Shown here: positions 5,497 to 18,247 of the stretch, piece by piece | How positions within the stretch are numbered: position 1 is the stretch's first letter | Layout of the letters: every line of letters starts with the position of its first letter | NCBI GenBank assembly: GCA_011525665.1 | Contig: WYAU01000024.1 | Coordinates: 1 to 32,682, forward strand | DNA from: Candidatus Brocadia sp. | GTDB lineage: Bacteria; Planctomycetota; Brocadiia; Brocadiales; Brocadiaceae | Length of the DNA: 32,682 bases | Direction of reading: 5' to 3' | Notes under the pieces: generated by a model | Databases searched by the model: none | What the model saw: the letters and a program-made list of their open reading frames with translations, nothing else | What the model was told of the DNA's origin: nothing | Program-made: the position numbers and the translations under genes

Positions 5497-5538
5497 CCCT
5501 TTCTCCCCTCCTTGTGAAGGAGAGGAAAGAGGGGAGGT
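5497..5538. repeat. 42-bp direct repeat, copy 1
   Basis: This unit differs at only two positions from the unit at 7217-7258 in the same orientation. The core CCCCTCCTTGTGAAGGAG(A/G)GG is an inverted repeat with a three-base GTG loop; the stem is perfect in copy 2 and has one mismatch here. The two copies bracket the cupredoxin-like, DUF1326-like and six-cysteine genes. Confidence 0.75.
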
Positions 5539-5565
5539 TGCAGCCCGATCCGTTTTGGTCAGTGA

Positions 5566-5904
5566 TTATCTTCTTCTTTTTAACTCAAAATTTGCAGTGG
5601 CAGACTTACCGGCCTCCACTGTGACCTCTTGTGATACTTTCTTGAGTTTTTCATGCCAGGTCTTTAGCACGTACTTTCCTGGCGGTACTCCTTCAATGCT
5701 ATAATTTCCGTCCTTATCGGTAATTGCAAAATAAGGGTTCTCAAACGACACAACATATCCCGCCATCTCCGCATGAACATTACAGAGAAGCGGTGTCTCT
5801 CCGGTTACATCAAAAAGAACATCTTTCACAACACCCGCGGGATAGGTTCCCAGGTTGAATTGTAATGCGGACCCCGGCGGTGAAAACACATTGTGGCGCA
5901 CCAC
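5566..5904 (-). pseudogene. Cupredoxin/carboxypeptidase-regulatory-like protein, N-terminally truncated
   Basis: This is a 112-codon frame from a GTG at 5904. The first part, RHNVFSPPGSALQFNLGTYP through LLCNVHAEMAGYVV, is the C-terminal half of a plastocyanin-like cupredoxin, with His and Cys-x-x-His ligand positions (HNVF, CNVHAEM). The second part, about residues 55-108, is a carboxypeptidase regulatory-like beta-sandwich (FAITDKDGNYSIEGVPPGKYVLKTWHE). Exported relatives carry a signal peptide and about 60-80 more residues at the N terminus. Here a TAA lies seven codons upstream of the GTG, and the preceding DNA belongs to the DUF1326-like gene, which it overlaps by about 95 bases in another frame. 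A deletion that joined two genes is the simplest reading. No shine-dalgarno sequence serves this start, so a functional product is unlikely. Confidence 0.7.
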
Positions 5905-6643
5905 AGAGAGGGCATTTTAGCTCAACCTGCAAATGACCCTTGCACTTTATACTTGTATGAAAGTAAGAGTTGCTTCCCTTCAGTTCAAATTTCCGTTCCG
6001 CGTCGTTAAAACTACCGGAGATAACCCTGCCCTGCATAAAAACAGGGGTTAATTTACTTTTAGTGTTCGTATGCATTACGGGGGTTGTGTTGTCCCCACC
6101 GAGAACCGGTTCCGTTGTCAGTTGCATAATCTTGCCATCATCGACCTTAACGGTATAATTGCCATCTTTTCCGGAAAATTCAATTTTGGCGCTATTGACC
6201 TTCACGACTTTGCCATAATGGCCGAAAATACCTTTGGCAAACCTGATGGCCGCTTGTTTCTGTTGATCATCTTTTGCATCGACATAAATAGCGATCCATT
6301 CACCGGGTTGGGTTGCATAGGCGATTTTTGCACCGGTTAAGTCTATGCCACCACAACTGCTATCACCCAAAGACAGTGCAGCAATCGTTTGACAGCCCAT
6401 TTCATAATTTATCAATTCGCAGGGGCACGGTATGTCGCAACTACACCCCTCCACAAAGGCTCCTTTTACACTGTATTTCTCACATGCATGGGCACCGTGA
6501 TGCGTATGTTCATGCTCATGCGAATACCCGTGCTCATGTTTATGCTCATTGGCAAAAACCGTCCGCTAGGACATGCCGATTGTTCCACCGGTAAAGATCG
6601 TGGCAAGTAAAATACCGAGGGTTATAATAAATTTCTTCGACAT
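5810..6643 (-). pseudogene. Exported DUF1326-like His/Cys protein with an amber codon in the signal peptide
   Basis: From the ATG at 6643, with AAGGAG six bases upstream, the frame reads a signal peptide MSKKFIITLGILLATIFTGG, continues IGMS and then has TAG at 6566-6568. It resumes RTVFA, a His-rich linker (EHKHEHG through HEHEHTHHGAH, nine His) and CEKYSVKGAFVEGCSCDIPCPCE, the cysteine signature at the start of DUF1326-type domains. The body continues to about FELKGSNSYFHTS. The last 40 residues (KCKGHLQVELKCPLCGAP onward) look like out-of-frame reading of the cupredoxin gene. A GTG at 6454 could restart translation, but without a signal peptide. The neighbouring six-cysteine gene has the same leader with TAT in place of TAG. 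Likely original role: a periplasmic metal-binding protein. Confidence 0.75.
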
Positions 6644-6843: not shown

Positions 6844-7158
6844 TTACTTCTTTTCTAACTCCTTTTCCAGTTTTTTTATCCTCTCCTGTAAGCAATCAAC
6901 GCAGCGGTTGCAATTGCCGGGGCATTCTTCATATCCGCATTTTTCACACTTCTTTGCGGCTTCTTTTTCAGCCTTTCGCCTTGCTATACACTCTTCACAT
7001 CTTCCGCAATCACCCGGGCATATATAGTGTCCACAATGACCACAGCCGTGGTGCCCATGCCCATGGGCAAAAACCGTCTGATAAGGCATGCCAACGATTA
7101 CACCAGCAGAGGCAATAGAAAGTAAAATACCGGTGGCAATAATAAATTTCTTAAACAT
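6844..7158 (-). CDS. Small exported protein with two identical six-cysteine motifs
   Basis: Translation probably starts at the ATG at 7158, preceded by AAGGAG at six bases; a longer frame begins at 7185 without a better site. The 104-residue product has a signal peptide (MFKKFIIATGILLSIASAG, cleaved near TVFA-HG), a short HGHGHHG stretch and two tandem motifs: CGHCGHYICPGDCGRCEEC and CEKCGYEECPGNCNRCVDC. Both follow C-x2-C-G-x3-C-P-G-x-C-x-R-C-x2-C exactly. Charged helices separate the motifs, and a Lys/Glu-rich coiled-coil tail ends the protein. I do not recognise a named family. Twelve cysteines in a fixed spacing plus histidines suggest metal binding outside the cytoplasm. Its leader, including the shine-dalgarno context, is a diverged copy of the leader of the DUF1326-like gene just downstream. 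Confidence 0.82.
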   Translation of the reverse strand: MFKKFIIATGILLSIASAGVIVGMPYQTVFAHGHGHHGCGHCGHYICPGDCGRCEECIARRKAEKEAAKKCEKCGYEECPGNCNRCVDCLQERIKKLEKELEKK

Positions 7159-7216
7159 GCGTATCTCCTTTTTCCCCATTTTCATGAAAAAGAGTTTTGG
7201 GGAATCTTTTTACCAT

Positions 7217-7258
7217 CCCTTTCTCCCCTCCTTGTGAAGGAGGGGAAAGAGGGGTGGT
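7217..7258. repeat. 42-bp direct repeat, copy 2
   Basis: This is the second copy of the unit at 5497-5538, with two mismatches. The inverted repeat CCCCTCCTT-GTG-AAGGAGGGG is perfect here (9-bp arms). Confidence 0.75.
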
Positions 7259-7328: not shown

Positions 7329-7799
7329 TTACTTAAGATAAAATGTATGGCATTCGATACACGTCTTCTGTATCAGATTAGTAACGGCATTTAATGTAGC
7401 TCCCTCATCTTTCGTATCCGCAGCTTTTTGAATTTCTTTCACCTGTGCATCCATCTTGTTCACAAAAGAAGTGAAAACCTCTCTTCGTTTTTTGGTCTCC
7501 TCCGGATTCAGGGCCTCCGCTACCATAAACCATTGACCTCTCGGAAAAAAGTTATCGAGTATCTTTTTGCCCAGGTCGGGAAGGGCGGCAGCCTCCTGCT
7601 TTACATAATCCAGATTACCCTCTAAAATCCCTTCGATCATGTTCGTCACCCTGTTTTCCATCTCGCTGGTGAGCCTCTTGATGGGCAAGTTAACACGCAC
7701 TTGTTTGCCTTCTTCTGCCATGGTTACAGAATGAAAACCCACATTTGCCAGCCCCATTATTGCAGCAAGACCAAAACCAACAAAAATGCCCCTCTTCAT
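7329..7799 (-). CDS. Exported class II (c'/c556-like) monoheme cytochrome c
   Basis: The product has 156 residues, with a signal peptide (MKRGIFVGFGLAAIMGLANVG, cleaved near MAEEG) and a helical body. A single heme-binding motif CIECH lies nine residues from the C terminus (TCIECHTFYLK). A lone CxxCH at the end of a four-helix protein is the layout of class II cytochromes c (cytochrome c' and c556). The matured size of about 130 residues fits. Such proteins act in the periplasm or its equivalent in electron transfer or in binding nitric oxide. The fifth ligand His is the one in CIECH. No sixth-ligand Met near the N terminus can be assigned with certainty (METE-like positions SEMENRVTNM contain two). 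GGGAGG precedes the ATG. It stands alone between two spacers. Confidence 0.82.
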   Translation of the reverse strand: MKRGIFVGFGLAAIMGLANVGFHSVTMAEEGKQVRVNLPIKRLTSEMENRVTNMIEGILEGNLDYVKQEAAALPDLGKKILDNFFPRGQWFMVAEALNPEETKKRREVFTSFVNKMDAQVKEIQKAADTKDEGATLNAVTNLIQKTCIECHTFYLK

Positions 7800-11734: not shown

Positions 11735-12655
11735 ATGAAACTGAAACACCAAATATGTTTTTACCTGTTCTTGTTAATATGCTGGACGTCTACCGTCCAT
11801 GCAAAATTACACGTTGTTGCATCGACCCCGGACCTGGGCGCGCTCGCCAGGGAAATTGGAAAGGATAAAGTGGAAATCACCAGCCTTGCAAAACCTACGG
11901 AAGATCCACACTTTGTTGATGCAAAACCGGGTTTCATCGTGAAACTGAACAAGGCGGACATGCTTATTGAAGGCGGTTTGCATTTGGAAATTGGCTGGCT
12001 GCCGAACTTGGTTATCGGTGCGCGGAACCAAAAGATACTTGCCGGCACTCCCGGCTATTTCATCGCTGCCGCAAATATTCAGGTATTAGAAATACCTGAC
12101 GTAATGCCTGACCGTGCCAGAGAGATGGGCGATGTCCATCCCCTCGGAAATCCTCATTTCCTGCTGGACCCGTTTAATGGAAAGGTCGTTGCAACGAACA
12201 TCTGCAATCGGTTATGCAAGATTGATGCGGCAAACAGTGCCTATTATAAAAACAACCTGAATGATTTTGTACAAAGACTGGACCGGAAATTGTCCGAATG
12301 GCAAAAGAAACTTGAGCCTTTTAAAGGAGCAAAAATTGTCACGTATCATAAAACATTTTCATACCTTGCACACCGGTTTAATCTGCATGTAATAGGGTCA
12401 CTTGAACCCAAGCCGGGAATACCGCCTTCCCCTGCTCATATCAACAACCTTATTCCCATGATGAAATATGAAGGGGTAAAAATCATTCTTACCGAGACTT
12501 TTCGAGAACGAAAAACGCCTGAATTTGTAGCAGCGCAGACAGGGGCAAAGGTTGTTATTGTACCGATTATGCCCGGCGGGGTAAAAGGGGTAGAGGATTT
12601 TATAGCGTTTTTCGACTATAACATTCATCAGATTGTATCAGCGCTTCGGGGATAA
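11735..12655 (+). CDS. Metal ABC transporter substrate-binding protein (ZnuA/TroA-like)
   Basis: The product has 306 residues with a signal peptide (MKLKHQICFYLFLLICW, cleaved near VHA-KLHVV). This is a cluster A-I binding protein that captures Zn2+ or Mn2+ outside the inner membrane. Ligand positions fit the family: H59 in EDPHFVDAKP, H141 in GNPHFLLDP and H205 in TYHKTFSYLAHRF. ETFRERKTPEF lies near the place of the fourth, acidic ligand. The long His-rich loop of classical ZnuA is absent, so the metal could be zinc or manganese. AAAGGAG lies upstream of the ATG. Its ABC partners are not adjacent but 4 kb downstream, beyond the ZIP, amidase and sigma-54 activator genes. Confidence 0.92.
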   Translation: MKLKHQICFYLFLLICWTSTVHAKLHVVASTPDLGALAREIGKDKVEITSLAKPTEDPHFVDAKPGFIVKLNKADMLIEGGLHLEIGWLPNLVIGARNQKILAGTPGYFIAAANIQVLEIPDVMPDRAREMGDVHPLGNPHFLLDPFNGKVVATNICNRLCKIDAANSAYYKNNLNDFVQRLDRKLSEWQKKLEPFKGAKIVTYHKTFSYLAHRFNLHVIGSLEPKPGIPPSPAHINNLIPMMKYEGVKIILTETFRERKTPEFVAAQTGAKVVIVPIMPGGVKGVEDFIAFFDYNIHQIVSALRG

Positions 12656-12690
12656 CTTAATATTGTATAAGAATTAAGCGGTTTTTCGGT

Positions 12691-12720
12691 AGGGTGGATT
12701 AAGCGAAGCGAATCCACCCT
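12691..12720. repeat. Palindromic repeat with AAGCGAAGCG loop
   Basis: AGGGTGGATT and AATCCACCCT form perfect 10-bp arms around AAGCGAAGCG. Elements of this type (GGTGGATTAAGCGAAGCGAATCCACC) are dispersed in many bacterial genomes. It sits directly before the hairpin element at 12734-12764. Confidence 0.7.
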
Positions 12721-12733
12721 ATCATACAATGTT

Positions 12734-12764
12734 GAAGGTGGGTACGGCGTAAAAACAACGCCTT
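12734..12764. repeat. Dispersed hairpin element, copy B
   Basis: GAAGGTGGGTACGGCGT, loop AAAAACA and ACGCCTT form a stem GGCGT/ACGCC. Outer GGTGG and downstream CCACC (12768-12772) can lengthen it. It is related to 6737-6768, with compensatory changes in the stem. Confidence 0.55.
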
Positions 12765-12900
12765 CATCCACCCTACTCATAGCTTGTAGCGCCAGCATTT
12801 TTTATTCATCAATGGCAAACAATGAAATATATCCTTGTATAAAATCCGTATTTATGGATTCAGTTACCGGGACGTTGAACTATCTTATTTAAGGAATCAC

Positions 12901-13653
12901 ATGATTATAACATGGATCTATGCCGCAACGAGCGTGTTTTTGGTGAGCGCTATTTCCTTAATTGGAATAGTAACCGTATCGCTGAAAGCCGATAAACTCA
13001 AAAAGATTGTCTACATCCTCGTGAGTTTGTCTGTTGGCGGGTTGTTTGGAGACGTCTTTTTTCATTTAATACCAGAAGTATTCAGTAAACCTGGAAATTC
13101 CTTGCACAGTTCTTTTCTTATGATAACGGGAATTCTCTGTTTTTTTTCCATGGAGAAATTTTTACGCTGGAGGCATGAGCATTACATTGAAGTTTCAGAA
13201 AACACGGTACATCCCATAGGATATGTAAGCCTTTTTGCTGATACACTTCACAATTTTGTTGACGGCGTGCTCATAGGAGCATCTTACCTGGTAAGTCTCC
13301 CGCTGGGAATTTCTGTGACGATAGCAATTGTCTTGCATGAAATACCGCAGGAAATTGGTGATTTTGGTGTCTTACTCCATGCCGGATTTAGTAAACGCAA
13401 GGCATTGCTTGTCAATTCTTTGTCTGCTGTCGCAGCTATTGTGGGAATGATACTGGCTTTGATTATCGGGTGCGAGGTGGATGGCTTATCCGGTTTTATC
13501 GTACCATTTGCTGCAGGGGGATTTGTCTACCTCGCTGGTTCAGACCTGGTACCAGAACTGCACAAGGAGAATACCATAGCAAAGTCGCTGATCCAGTTTA
13601 CCTTTATTTTACTGGGAATTTGCTTGTTATTTCTCCTCACGTTCCTGGAATAG
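12901..13653 (+). CDS. ZIP-family metal transporter
   Basis: This is an inner-membrane protein of 250 residues. I chose the ATG at 12901 because TTAAGGAA lies three to nine bases before it and the family N terminus is short; the frame is open from 12835. Seven to eight hydrophobic helices are visible. The metal-site signatures are in helix IV (HNFVDG, H117, N118, D121) and helix V (HEIPQEIGDF, H146, E147, E151). The intracellular loop has RHEHYIE. The C-terminal GSDLVPELHKE is a family hallmark. ZIP proteins bring Zn2+, and sometimes Fe2+ or Mn2+, into the cytoplasm. Its place between ZnuA-like and ABC genes supports zinc uptake. It contains a second, independent import route to the ABC system. 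Confidence 0.9.
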   Translation: MIITWIYAATSVFLVSAISLIGIVTVSLKADKLKKIVYILVSLSVGGLFGDVFFHLIPEVFSKPGNSLHSSFLMITGILCFFSMEKFLRWRHEHYIEVSENTVHPIGYVSLFADTLHNFVDGVLIGASYLVSLPLGISVTIAIVLHEIPQEIGDFGVLLHAGFSKRKALLVNSLSAVAAIVGMILALIIGCEVDGLSGFIVPFAAGGFVYLAGSDLVPELHKENTIAKSLIQFTFILLGICLLFLLTFLE

Positions 13654-13656
13654 AAA

Positions 13657-13755
13657 ATGAATAATGCCTTATCTGATCATGTATTAGAGTATCGTGCTGT
13701 TGAGAAAAGGAAAATGCAGGAAATCGTTTCTGAGGTAACCAACTCGGCAAGGTAA
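13657..13755 (+). CDS. Possible 32-residue ORF after the ZIP gene
   Basis: An ATG three bases past the ZIP stop opens MNNALSDHVLEYRAVEKRKM, then QEIVSEVTNSAR, and stops at TAA. Composition is helical and charged, and codons look normal. There is no good shine-dalgarno sequence. It may be a small protein read by coupling with the ZIP gene, or the N-terminal relic of a regulator. I recognise no family. Confidence 0.25.
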   Translation: MNNALSDHVLEYRAVEKRKMQEIVSEVTNSAR

Positions 13756-13821
13756 GGATTGTTAAATTTCTTAAACACGGCGTATAGACTGATATTTCAC
13801 TGTCATTTCAGAAAGTCATCC

Positions 13822-14415
13822 ATGAATTTTCAAAAGAAGATATACCGGTACTTGTTTTTTGTTGTTCTGATTTGTTTCTCCGGTTGTTATACACCGCCAG
13901 AGTTTAAGCAGATAACTGCCACAAAACCACCCGAAAAGAAAGTGCCTTATTTTATTAGCCAGCTGGACCGCTATTCTGTGCGGGAATGGAAATATATTGT
14001 TATCCATCACAGCGCTTCGGAGTCAGGCTGCGCCGCAGAATTTGATAAATTTCACCGGGAGAAGAGGCACTGGGAAAACGGTTTGGGATATCATTTTGTC
14101 ATAGGAAACGGGAATGGCGCGGGTAATGGACAGATTGAGATCGGGAACCGGTGGATGAATCAACTCAATGGCGCCCATGCCGGTATTCAGGAATACAATC
14201 ATTATGGTATTGGGATATGTCTTGTGGGAAATTTCAATACCTCATATCCCACAGAGGCGCAAATGAATTCATTGTTTGCCCTGGTAAAATATCTCCAGGA
14301 ACGATGTTATATCCCCGCTGAAAATGTGCTCATGCATAGACATTGCAAGGAAACCGATTGTCCCGGAAAGAATTTTCCTTATTATCAATTGCTTGCAAAG
14401 ATTAGCCGGTACTAA
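13822..14415 (+). CDS. N-acetylmuramoyl-L-alanine amidase (PGRP/amidase_2) lipoprotein
   Basis: The product has 197 residues from the ATG at 13822, which gives a lipoprotein signal MNFQKKIYRYLFFVVLICFS followed by G-C22; the frame is open further upstream but that part is not signal-like. The amidase_2/PGRP domain runs from about 57 to the end: YIVIHHSASESG supplies the first zinc His, GLGYHFVIGNG the typical strand, NGAHAGIQEYNHYGIGICLVGNF the core, and MHRHCKETDCPGKNFPY the last His/Cys ligands. The enzyme cuts the amide between muramic acid and L-alanine and binds one Zn2+. Being zinc-dependent, its position in a zinc-uptake island is interesting. It would be anchored to a membrane facing the periplasm. 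The shine-dalgarno sequence is weak. Confidence 0.85.
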   Translation: MNFQKKIYRYLFFVVLICFSGCYTPPEFKQITATKPPEKKVPYFISQLDRYSVREWKYIVIHHSASESGCAAEFDKFHREKRHWENGLGYHFVIGNGNGAGNGQIEIGNRWMNQLNGAHAGIQEYNHYGIGICLVGNFNTSYPTEAQMNSLFALVKYLQERCYIPAENVLMHRHCKETDCPGKNFPYYQLLAKISRY

Positions 14416-14434
14416 TTTTCGGAGGTATGAAGTC

Positions 14435-15829
14435 ATGTCTGATGAAAAAATACTCATTATAGATGATGATATCAATCATCTGGAAGTCATCCGGATGCGT
14501 TTAAAGGCGTGGGGATATTCCGTCTCCGTTGCCAGAGATAGCCATGAGGCAAGGATTGCATTATCTGCGACCTCCTTCAATCTGGCCATCATAGATTTAC
14601 GATTGTCAGAAGAGGATGGCATCGAGCTTATGGGAGAAACACTCCGGCGTTATCCAAACATGCCCGTTATCATTCTCACGGCTCACGGAAGCATCGAAAG
14701 CGCTGTAGATGCCATGAAAAAAGGGGCATACAGTTATATTACCAAACCCTTCAACAATGAAGACCTGTCAGTCCATATCAAAAACGCCCTGGAAAAGCAA
14801 ATCCTTGTCAGGGAGCTCGAGCATCTCCGAAGCCAGCTTCGTGAACAGCATAACGTTAATCACATTATTGGGAATAGCCAAAAGATGCAAAGAGTCATGG
14901 GACAGATTTCCCTCATTGCCAAAACCGACTGTACGGTTTCCATTTACGGTGAGAGTGGAACGGGCAAAGAGCTCATCGCAAGGGCTATCCATCATAACAG
15001 CAACCGGTCAAAAGGCCCTTTTGTCGCCACAAATTGCGGCGCCATACCGGAAGGATTATTGGAAAATGAACTCTTCGGTCATATACGGGGAGCTTATACG
15101 GATGCCCATGAATCAAAAGAAGGCCTCTTTGCGCAGGCGGACGGAGGCACCCTGTTTTTGGATGAAATTGGTAATACCCCCCCTGCTTTGCAGATGAAAC
15201 TTTTGCGTGTGCTACAGGAAAGGGAATTTAAACCAATCGGCGGCACCAAAAGCATTAAGGTTAACGTACGGGTCGTCGCTGCCTCAAATGTAGATATAAA
15301 AAAGGCAGTAACCAATGGAACGTTTCGTGAAGATCTATTTTACAGAATCCACGTTGTGCCCATTTATTTGCCGCCTTTACGCGAAAGAAAAGACGACATC
15401 CCCTTGCTGGCCACTTATTTTATGAGAGAATTTTGCGGGGCGCTCAAAAAAGATATCCAGGAATTTACTCCTGCAGCCATCCAAAGAATGATGCGGTACA
15501 ACTGGCCGGGAAATGTCCGTGAATTACAAAACAAGATTGAGCATGCGGTGGTCATGGCCACGAAAAATGTCATCACGCCGGAGGATCTCTTTGGCGATAC
15601 CGACATATCCAATCATCCCTTTCATTCGTACAAGGATGCTAAAGAGAGGTTTGAACGTGAATACCTTGAAAATCTCCTGAAAATAAGCAACGGTAATATC
15701 TCATATGCCTCCAAAATGGCAAAACGTTATCGAGCCGATATTTATAAATTAATCAAAAAATACCGTATAAACCCTGATAACTATAAAAACGGGCAGGCAC
15801 CCATGATCACAGGAAAAATTGTGGCGTAA
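14435..15829 (+). CDS. NtrC-family sigma-54-dependent response regulator
   Basis: The product has 465 residues. GGAGG nine bases before the ATG at 14435 fixes the start; the frame itself is open further upstream into the amidase gene. The receiver domain (1-120) has acidic D10-D12, phosphorylatable D54, T82 and K104. The AAA+ sigma-54 activation domain (about 143-380) has Walker A GESGTGKE (172-179), Walker B TLFLDE (239-244) and an arginine finger region (FREDLFYRIHVVPI). The sigma-54 contact loop reads GAYTDA (219-224) instead of GAFTGA. The C-terminal Fis-type helix-turn-helix is NISYASKMAKRYRADIYKLI. No histidine kinase gene is next to it. A clear sigma-54 promoter lies 280 bases downstream of its stop, ahead of a decayed exported protein and the ABC genes, which are its likely targets. 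Confidence 0.93.
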   Translation: MSDEKILIIDDDINHLEVIRMRLKAWGYSVSVARDSHEARIALSATSFNLAIIDLRLSEEDGIELMGETLRRYPNMPVIILTAHGSIESAVDAMKKGAYSYITKPFNNEDLSVHIKNALEKQILVRELEHLRSQLREQHNVNHIIGNSQKMQRVMGQISLIAKTDCTVSIYGESGTGKELIARAIHHNSNRSKGPFVATNCGAIPEGLLENELFGHIRGAYTDAHESKEGLFAQADGGTLFLDEIGNTPPALQMKLLRVLQEREFKPIGGTKSIKVNVRVVAASNVDIKKAVTNGTFREDLFYRIHVVPIYLPPLRERKDDIPLLATYFMREFCGALKKDIQEFTPAAIQRMMRYNWPGNVRELQNKIEHAVVMATKNVITPEDLFGDTDISNHPFHSYKDAKERFEREYLENLLKISNGNISYASKMAKRYRADIYKLIKKYRINPDNYKNGQAPMITGKIVA

Positions 15830-15873
15830 CCTATTGCTGCCTACGCCTAATTGCCGTAAAATATTCCCTACAA

Positions 15874-15926
15874 TATGTATGTTTTTGAATACATAATAAA
15901 CCGATACAAGTATTTATATTATAAAT
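15874..15926. promoter_or_regulatory. AT-rich inverted repeats, possible activator-binding sites
   Basis: TATGTAT and ATACATA form perfect 7-bp arms with an 8-base spacer (15874-15895). ATTTAT-ATT-ATAAAT lies at 15912-15926 and ATACAAGTAT at 15904-15913. They lie about 180-230 bases upstream of the -24 element, the usual range for enhancer sites of NtrC-type activators. The assignment to this activator is inference. Confidence 0.4.
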
Positions 15927-15929
15927 CGT

Positions 15930-16080
15930 TAAAACAATTCCATAAGACTGTATGATTTTTTATACACAAGAGACCATGACAGGATATCAGATAACAAAAC
16001 AATGAAATTCATTGGAGAAATTTTATCTATCCTAAGAACTTTCTTTTTAAAGTGTTATGTACTTTTTTTATCATAGCAAA
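15930..16080. other. AT-rich spacer downstream of the sigma-54 activator gene
   Basis: The stretch from 15830 to 16208 has no gene. Apart from the inverted repeats and the sigma-54 promoter listed separately, it is plain AT-rich DNA. No terminator hairpin follows the activator gene. Confidence 0.5.
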
Positions 16081-16105
16081 AAAGAGCGTTTAAGAAAACT
16101 TTTCT

Positions 16106-16121
16106 GGCAAAGATATTGCTC
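16106..16121 (+). promoter_or_regulatory. Sigma-54 (-24/-12) promoter
   Basis: TGGCAAAGATATTGCT matches the consensus TGGCAC(G/A)-N4-TTGC(A/T) with the invariant GG and GC dinucleotides in exact register and a pyrimidine in front; only the C of GGCAC is changed. Transcription would start near 16132, about 78 bases before the ATG at 16209. The adjacent upstream gene encodes a sigma-54 activator, which supports the call. Confidence 0.75.
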
Positions 16122-16208
16122 ATCTTCACATGGACAACCATGTTGTTTTACTGAGAGTGTTCTTGGTACGTGGTTTAGATTCCTTTATGTGAGGAGGAGG
16201 AAAAGAAG

Positions 16209-16528
16209 ATGTTGAAGAAATTGGGACTGAGTTTTGATTTTGTGGGTGCATTGATGTTTGGTTTTGGCGCTGTCATGAGCAACCTGTTCATTGGCACTAC
16301 CACCGCATCTGAAGAAAAGAAAGAGATGACTAGCCGGCCCTTTTTGATTATACTATTAAGGAAATTGCATCAGTCCTGAAAAACAAAATCCTGGATCGAC
16401 AGACGGAGAACGATAAATAACGGCTAAGACAGCAGACCACCGAAGATGTTACAAAATTTTCTATGCCGGTTAAAATGCGGCAGCGGTTTATCTCTGGTTC
16501 CTTTTCAACACAGATTCACTGTGGGTAG
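16209..16528 (+). pseudogene. Decayed small exported protein behind the sigma-54 promoter
   Basis: After an excellent GAGGAGGAGG site, an ATG opens a signal peptide (MLKKLGLSFDFVGALMFGFG, later TTTAS) and EEKKEMTSR. The frame then runs out at a TGA at 16377-16379. One frame over, from about 16340, a sensible sequence resumes: LFDYTIKEIASVLKNKILDR, QTENDK, then TAA at 16418-16420. It continues in the same frame as RLRQQTTEDVTKFSMPVKMR and QRFISGSFSTQIHCG to TAG at 16528. A one-base deletion plus CAA-to-TAA would explain it; repaired, the protein would be about 106 residues. No family is recognised. It ends about 40 bases before the ATPase gene. Confidence 0.6.
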
Positions 16529-16568
16529 CACACGGTAACTGTTGATAATCTATAAAAAAAACACAATT

Positions 16569-17288
16569 ATGAACGCAGACCTTTGTATTGCCTTGAAAGA
16601 TGTCTCTATTGGTTATCATGGGCATCCTATACTTACCGATATTGATTTTTCCTTAAAAACAGGAGAATTTACCGTCCTGTTTGGTCCCAACGGCTGCGGC
16701 AAAACCACCTTGTTTAAAACCATCCTCCGGATTATCCCTCCTCTTCACGGAACGATTACGTATGGCAACACCCATTACCCCAGATTTGGTTATGTGCCTC
16801 AGCGCCAGACGTTGGATGAGATATATCCGTTTACCGCGGGAGAAGTGGTGCTGATGGGTACATTCGGACAGACAAAACCCTTCTGTCCCACGCCGGAGAT
16901 TAATCGTACCTGGGTAGATCAATGCTTAAAAGACGTTGGCATGCTGGAGATGAAAAGACAATTATTTTCTGAATTGTCCGGCGGACAAAAGCAGCGTATA
17001 CTGATAGCACGTGCGCTGGCTACCAGACCGACCATTCTCCTGCTGGATGAGCCTATCACAGGGGTTGATATTATTGCGCAGAGAAAGATCATGGAGCTTA
17101 TCGCGCTGCTGCATAAAAAGCATGAATTGACGATCGTGATGGTTACTCATGAGATTCATAGTATTCCCCGGTGGATAAACAAATTGATTTGGATCAACAA
17201 TAACAAGGTACTCATCGGTAATTCACGTGATATCCTTGCACCCTTGATAACCGAAGAAGCTTCGTTTCAGGGCGCTTTGTGGCATTGA
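16569..17288 (+). CDS. Metal ABC transporter ATPase (ZnuC-like)
   Basis: The product has 239 residues from the ATG at 16569; a TTG at 16542 is in frame, and neither has a good shine-dalgarno sequence. Features: Walker A GPNGCGKTT (39-47), Q-loop VPQRQTLDEIYPF, signature LSGGQKQR, Walker B ILLLDEP, and H-loop VTHE. The Q-loop and the ITGVD pattern fit the family 3 (Zn/Mn/Fe chelate) importers. It energises metal import at the inner membrane together with the permease 86 bases downstream and, by inference, with the ZnuA-like protein at 11.7 kb. The weak translation start directly behind a decayed exported-protein gene suggests the transcript from the sigma-54 promoter still serves it. Confidence 0.92.
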   Translation: MNADLCIALKDVSIGYHGHPILTDIDFSLKTGEFTVLFGPNGCGKTTLFKTILRIIPPLHGTITYGNTHYPRFGYVPQRQTLDEIYPFTAGEVVLMGTFGQTKPFCPTPEINRTWVDQCLKDVGMLEMKRQLFSELSGGQKQRILIARALATRPTILLLDEPITGVDIIAQRKIMELIALLHKKHELTIVMVTHEIHSIPRWINKLIWINNNKVLIGNSRDILAPLITEEASFQGALWH

Positions 17289-17374
17289 CAGGATAATGAA
17301 AGGTGGAATAGCGCACTCATGATTTACACGTGTAATACTTTTTTGTCTCCGACCTGTTTGGGATACGGCTATCC

Positions 17375-18247
17375 ATGGAACAGCTATTAGAGATACTTAG
17401 TCCGCATTTTCTCTTGAGAAACTCCCTCTACGCCGGACTGATTGTTGGATTCGTCTGTCCGCAGGTAGGCATATTTTTTGTTTTGCGACGTATGGTGCTT
17501 CTGGGCATAGCGCTGCCCCAGGTGTCAAATGCAGGAATTACCTTCGCATTTTTATTGTGCACGATAGGATTCCATTTTCTCCCCCATATGGAGTCTGAAA
17601 AATTTATGGCACTTACAGGCTCTGTGTTCTTCACACTCATCGCCATATTTATTTTGGCCATCCTCGAACGGAGAAGAAAGGGTTTTACAGAAAACCGCAT
17701 TGGGTTTACCTATTCAATTGCCGGAGCAGCATCCATATTGTTTGTTTCGTGGAATCCCTATGGACAAACAGAGGTGCTTTCCTTGCTCAAAGGAGAGATT
17801 GTTTCCGTCCCGGACATCTATTTGTGGCTCATGATTGCCATTTACGGCACAATTTTCCTTTGTTTAATCGGATTCCACCGCAGTTTTGTCATAGTATCCT
17901 ATGATGCAGACATGGCTATCACCATTGGCAAAAAGGTGGTCCTATGGGATATTCTGCTCTATCTTATCATCGGTGTAGTCATTTCGTTTGGTGTAATGAC
18001 CGTTGGCCCGGTGGTCATCTTTGGTTTTCTGCTGATACCGGCAATCACCGCCAGAATGATCACGCGCGGCATCCTGCCTTTCTGCATCGTCTCATCAGCT
18101 ATCGGGACAGCCGCTTCCTTCCTCGGCTTTTACATTTCATACCGCTTTGATCTTCCCACAGGCCCTACCGACGTCGCCTTGCTCAGCGTAATACTCCTGG
18201 TGTCATTCCTCGGCAAAACAGTCTTCCCCTGGAAAAAAATAAGCTGA
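17375..18247 (+). CDS. Metal ABC transporter permease (ZnuB-like)
   Basis: The product is a 290-residue integral membrane protein with about eight to nine helices. The N-terminal segment LLRNSLYAGLIVGFVCPQVGIFFVLRRMVLLGIALPQVSNAGI is characteristic of the ABC-3 permease family. The conserved GPVVIFGFLLIPAITARM block near 210-228 fits too. The extra QTEVLSLLKGEIVSV segment corresponds to the loop facing the ATPase. It follows the ATPase gene by 86 bases in the same direction. Together they should transport Zn2+ or Mn2+ delivered by the ZnuA-like protein. The start is the ATG matching the family N terminus; GGGATACGG upstream may act as a weak ribosome site. Confidence 0.92.
   Translation: MEQLLEILSPHFLLRNSLYAGLIVGFVCPQVGIFFVLRRMVLLGIALPQVSNAGITFAFLLCTIGFHFLPHMESEKFMALTGSVFFTLIAIFILAILERRRKGFTENRIGFTYSIAGAASILFVSWNPYGQTEVLSLLKGEIVSVPDIYLWLMIAIYGTIFLCLIGFHRSFVIVSYDADMAITIGKKVVLWDILLYLIIGVVISFGVMTVGPVVIFGFLLIPAITARMITRGILPFCIVSSAIGTAASFLGFYISYRFDLPTGPTDVALLSVILLVSFLGKTVFPWKKIS

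Follow-up and report, generated by a model that had tools for sequence, protein, structure and literature searches.

What does a small exported protein with two equally spaced arrays of six cysteines do in an anammox bacterium? The gene examined here lies in a 32,682-nt stretch of Candidatus Brocadia sp. DNA (the window), beside NosL and blue-copper-like genes and in organisms whose copper handling has been little described. If metal outside the cytoplasm were buffered by an exported modular Cys/His family limited to anammox-related Planctomycetota, this would be a novel way of doing so.

Gene, export signal and six-cysteine modules

The original prediction of a 104-aa protein with a signal-peptide-like start, a His-rich leader and two C-x2-C-G-x3-C-P-G-x-C-x-R-C-x2-C segments was borne out by the open reading frame and its translation (Table 1). 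The protein reads MFKKFIIATGILLSIASAGVIVGMPYQTVFA, the predicted cleavage point, HGHGHHG, CGHCGHYICPGDCGRCEEC, IARRKAEKEAAKK, CEKCGYEECPGNCNRCVDC and LQERIKKLEKELEKK, and AAGGAG was located 6 nt 5′ of the chosen ATG in a comparison of upstream regions with congeners. Where a coiled-coil tail was also proposed, the model predicts only a single C-terminal helix, some 17 residues long (87–103), which does not demonstrate a coiled coil. Near-identical palindromic CCCCTCCTTGTGAAGGAGGGG-type repeats at nt 5500–5540 and 7215–7255 of the window flank the locus and are possibly a small mobile element.

Signal peptides and cleavage sites were assigned by eye according to the (-3,-1) rule. The n-regions of family members were basic (MFKK, MCKK, MCKR, MSRK, MYKN and similar), the predicted cleavage site had Ala at -1 and V, L, I or S at -3, and inspection of the signal peptides revealed no RR with a Tat motif in any family member, so that export was taken to be of the Sec type. 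Ala at -1 and His at +1 were invariant in all 12 intact two-module proteins, the mature start of which, with cleavage placed by this rule only, was H-G-H or H-E-H (12/12). Such a predicted H-x-H N terminus following Ala would be a copper/nickel motif of the ATCUN type (x-x-His).

The DNA pattern for C-x2-C-x4-C-x3-C-x2-C-x2-C gave two matches in the window versus none in 100 dinucleotide shuffles, and in the whole 3.6-Mb genome this spacing occurred twice, both times inside the Cys-rich gene, with no match for a reversed-pattern control. The P, G and R within the motif varied across the aligned modules of the family; as read from these alignments, the real signature is six Cys plus a His that follows the second Cys at a distance of two residues. 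This His was retained in all aligned modules except module 2 of the window protein, in which Tyr takes its place. The CxxC pairs with His have the spacing of metal ligands rather than that typical of disulfides.

Table 1. Location of the Cys-rich gene, its parts, neighbouring genes and related short genes
Feature	Position	Strand	Remarks
Two-module Cys-rich exported protein gene	6844..7158	-	104 aa plus stop; coding part 6847-7158
Shine-Dalgarno sequence AAGGAG	7165..7170	-	Kept among congeners
Signal peptide, residues 1-31	7066..7158	-	Predicted cleavage between VFA and HGHGHH; (-3,-1) rule by eye
Mature N-terminal His leader HGHGHHG	7045..7065	-	Positions 1 and 3 of the mature chain are His; putative ATCUN-type x-x-His
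Six-Cys module 1, CGHCGHYICPGDCGRCEEC	6988..7044	-	Residues 39-57
Six-Cys module 2, CEKCGYEECPGNCNRCVDC	6892..6948	-	Residues 71-89
Charged C-terminal helix, LQERIKKLEKELEKK	6847..6891	-	From structure model; pLDDT ~87-93 over last 24 residues
Cytochrome c' family protein	7329..7799	-	Upstream neighbour, conserved beside the Cys-rich gene in Brocadia
Exported DUF1326 gene	5810..6643	-	TAG within signal peptide (6566-6568)
5'-truncated cupredoxin/CarboxypepD_reg protein	5566..5904	-	Keeps CNVHAEM, type-1 copper-like ligands
Tandem single-module Cys-rich genes, sister family	L046:146-584, L086:5233-5984, L087:5511-5986		
Mini protein CDKCGH...DCKCECHxKH	G000:C32:1267-1443 (L078:1267-1443)		Source genome

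Relatives and modular architecture

Twelve intact two-module proteins were known, from Brocadia, Kuenenia, Loosdrechtia, Scalindua and a sister family. An alignment of nine anammox-family members showed all 12 Cys, as well as H32, H34, H36 and H44, to be invariant, and the 12 Cys were also kept in three more distant two-module proteins; homologues with conserved cysteines, on which the original prediction hinged, thus exist. Named records among the relatives were Brocadia, Kuenenia hertensis, Scalindua, Loosdrechtia and a Planctomycetota MAG, and a search of the class added two Scalindua genomes, one sister-family genome and one divergent member that has lost the first-module spacing. Comparison of the Cys-rich gene with those of four congeners gave dN/dS values of ~0.10–0.16 (NG86), showing purifying selection, and a frameshifted copy lies between the same two neighbours in one genome (G022). 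Anammox bacteria thus do encode this small exported Cys-rich protein and have conserved it.

No convincing member was found outside the order in a sample of 392 genomes of the phylum, and a search for viral relatives found none. A Nocardia match (L055) was rejected because its DCGRCEEC arose by chance, in a frame that lacks the remainder of the module; matches in G420 and G055 were rejected as unrelated or zinc-ribbon-like. The family appears lineage-restricted and is unnamed in Pfam and NCBIfam, in agreement with the earlier remark that no named family with this motif was known: there was no Pfam match for any member, no NCBIfam match for the window protein and no PDB-sequence match, and no known Cys-rich family matched. 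PDB matches to an antifungal protein, HRX CXXC and L37e (E ≥0.15) were put down to composition and rejected. The AlphaFold2 model, with short helices after each module, was weak (pLDDT 74, pTM 0.39), Foldseek found no fold match for it, and the literature yielded nothing on this family in anammox bacteria, nor on DUF1326.

Sister-family genomes encoded 61–62-aa exported proteins with one six-Cys module, arranged in tandem sets of two or three, the module being SKCDKCGHDKCPGDCSKCPDCQKK or a variant with three extra residues before the fourth Cys. In hhalign they matched the two-module family with P 98.5% and E 2e-15, a match that is partly signal peptide. Since such single-module relatives exist, the six-Cys module is the unit. 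An unnamed mini class of exported ~60-aa proteins (A5), with CDKCGH...DCKCECHxKH, was present in most Brocadiaceae, and some genomes had several copies. Whether it descends from the same ancestor as the module proteins is uncertain because the hhalign match (E 1e-6) spans only 21 columns and is partly signal peptide.

Gene neighbourhood

The gene order in Brocadia, with losses, was cytochrome c', the Cys-rich gene, an exported DUF1326 gene, NosL and a cupredoxin-like protein, followed by persulfide dioxygenase-rhodanese, TSUP, DUF1641 and sulfide:quinone oxidoreductase. Three of these names (persulfide dioxygenase, TSUP and sulfide:quinone oxidoreductase) come from reading the sequences rather than from profile matches. 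In the window, the 3′ end of the DUF1326 gene runs into a NosL remnant (LKCPLCGA), and a deletion (5810–5904) joins DUF1326 to this stub and to the truncated cupredoxin gene, the Cys-rich gene being intact; the deletion and the in-frame TAG reflect either real decay or an assembly error. In Kuenenia and G024, the Cys-rich gene follows genes for a di-haem-type protein, NosL and an unknown exported protein, with a cupredoxin as well in Kuenenia, and in one Scalindua it directly precedes persulfide dioxygenase(-rhodanese).

Stand-alone NosL (Pfam E 9e-9, passing the Pfam cut-off) lay within ~1.5 kb of the Cys-rich gene in all three family genomes possessing both (G005, G018 and G024), and exported DUF1326 within ~0.6 kb in five genomes. 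A DUF1326-NosL fusion in the Kuenenia-group genome G020 (L098:4226-5236, minus strand) links DUF1326 to copper handling. Three Brocadia genomes had DUF1326 genes with a signal/His leader like that of the Cys-rich gene, from which it was copied or with which it is common; the leader of the window DUF1326 shared 74% DNA identity with it. The step from conserved ligands to copper is an inference from this gene context and from NosL, a Cu(I)-binding chaperone (PMC6530538).

Two further features were observed. A protein of 524–543 aa with no Pfam match was conserved near the Cys-rich gene (L028:10911-12485 in Brocadia and L058:10185-11816 in Scalindua). Nt 11735–18247 of the window encode a ZnuA-like binding protein, a ZIP-family protein, an ABC ATPase and a permease. 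Genes for an N-acetylmuramoyl amidase-like protein and a sigma-54-type regulator interrupt this set; apart from ZIP, all were named by reading only.

Function, alternatives and relation to known proteins

We lean towards the reading that the Cys-rich protein is an exported thiolate/His buffer or chaperone of copper or a similar soft metal. Sec export and signal-peptide cleavage would yield a mature chain of ~73 residues that starts H-x-H-x-H and carries two modules, each containing six Cys and, in most cases, one His; a module may bind a small soft-metal cluster, most likely of Cu(I), while the N-terminal His-x-His might capture Cu(II). The protein would then act as a copper buffer, or pass copper on, in the periplasm or the anammoxosome lumen, beside NosL, DUF1326 and blue-copper proteins. 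We infer metal binding, copper identity, stoichiometry, compartment and the role in storage or buffering versus delivery alike, and the invariant CxxC pairs with His and the signal peptide support the original suggestion of a metal-binding module outside the cytoplasm. The copper reading is favoured by NosL, DUF1326 and their fusion, the cupredoxin C-N-V-H-A-E-M, the shared leader and the tandem single-module paralogues, tandem gene sets being common for dose-dependent metal binders. Against it, the context is not universal, no copper genes being near the Cys-rich gene in L033 (Loosdrechtia), L058 (one Scalindua) and L059 (sister-family locus), the model is weak, and the upstream comparison with congeners revealed no conserved operator for a copper or zinc regulator.

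The chief alternative to copper is zinc. An exported binder of zinc, or of a generic d10 metal, with Zn-thiolate sites in each module, might buffer zinc for the periplasm or protect it; we consider this rather doubtful, although a ZnuABC-like uptake operon, which lies with the ZIP-family protein at 11.7–18.2 kb in the window and is the divergent neighbour in other Brocadia, makes zinc possible, the His-rich leader is similar to leaders found in zinc proteins, and there is a weak, non-significant likeness to zinc-binding CXXC fingers (HRX E 0.65; Pfam zf-CXXC E 0.52). However, Znu is near only in Brocadia, whereas Kuenenia, G024 and Scalindua keep NosL, cupredoxin or persulfide dioxygenase nearby, and both NosL and the blue-copper-like protein speak for copper.

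The genes for MBL-rhodanese, TSUP, DUF1641 and a sulfide:quinone oxidoreductase-like protein that follow the locus in several genomes, with persulfide dioxygenase-rhodanese (MBL-rhodanese) as a frequent neighbour and directly downstream in one Scalindua, would suit a persulfide (sulfane-sulfur) carrier or a thiol redox or disulfide-structured protein. Such a function is unlikely, since the CxxCxH spacing and the invariant His leader look like those of metal binders, thioredoxin-type and rhodanese-type motifs are lacking, and the presence of six Cys at CxxC spacing in each module argues against a disulfide fold. Less likely still is an Fe-S or other electron-transfer protein: the four-Cys spacing inside each module, C-x3-C-x2-C-x2-C, resembles a ferredoxin motif only in reverse, CxxCxxCxxxCP being absent, and cytochrome c' and di-haem-type genes are neighbours, but no ferredoxin profile or PDB match was found, and such a protein needs neither a fifth and sixth invariant Cys nor the His. 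The Fe-S-like nature first suggested is also disfavoured by Sec-type export without twin arginine in all members, a route on which a cluster assembled beforehand would probably be lost, and by a neighbourhood handling copper, haem and sulfur, not Fe-S assembly.

Returning to the copper reading, it may tentatively be extended to an exported metallothionein-like system evolved by anammox bacteria and sister lineages for copper traffic in the periplasm or anammoxosome, comprising one- and two-module CxxCxH...C...CxxCxxC proteins, the latter with ATCUN-like mature N termini, and the near-universal mini CDKCGH...DCKCECH. The two modules are short and expressible, and thus usable for direct metal-binding tests.

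Among known systems, NosL (PF05573) is likewise a small exported Cu-handling protein and a genomic partner of the Cys-rich gene, but they share no sequence similarity, NosL being a neighbour and not a relative. SmbP (PF16785), from a nitrogen-cycling bacterium, is also small and exported with His-rich ligands but has no Cys modules, and matched one of 13 members (E 0.087). The CXXC zinc finger (PF02008), a eukaryotic nuclear DNA-binding domain with similarly close C-x2-C-x2-C triplets, was taken as a chance match, with E 0.52 in two of 13 members and the wrong spacing. The copper storage proteins Csp1/Csp3, four-helix bundles with Cys lining the core, would resemble the Cys-rich protein in binding copper via cysteine thiolates, but exported Csp1 uses Tat, whereas the Cys-rich protein has short CxxC modules and a Sec-type signal; no Csp profile match was found, and its model has short helices only and no four-helix bundle. 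Exported Csp members exist (e.g. PMC12510493). Bacterial metallothioneins (SmtA/BmtA, MymT) are similarly small and Cys-rich, with repeated ligands and likely metal-thiolate clusters, and 12 of the 73 mature residues of the window protein are Cys, all invariant. SmtA/BmtA and MymT are cytosolic, as to our knowledge are most known bacterial metallothioneins, whereas the window protein is exported, starts with a His leader and differs in its fixed Cys spacing. Neither Pfam, searched with all members, nor NCBIfam, searched with the window protein, gave a match to a metallothionein profile. The mode of working, that of a metallothionein or copper-buffer protein, is already known, while the exported, modular, His-led and anammox-restricted form appears new.
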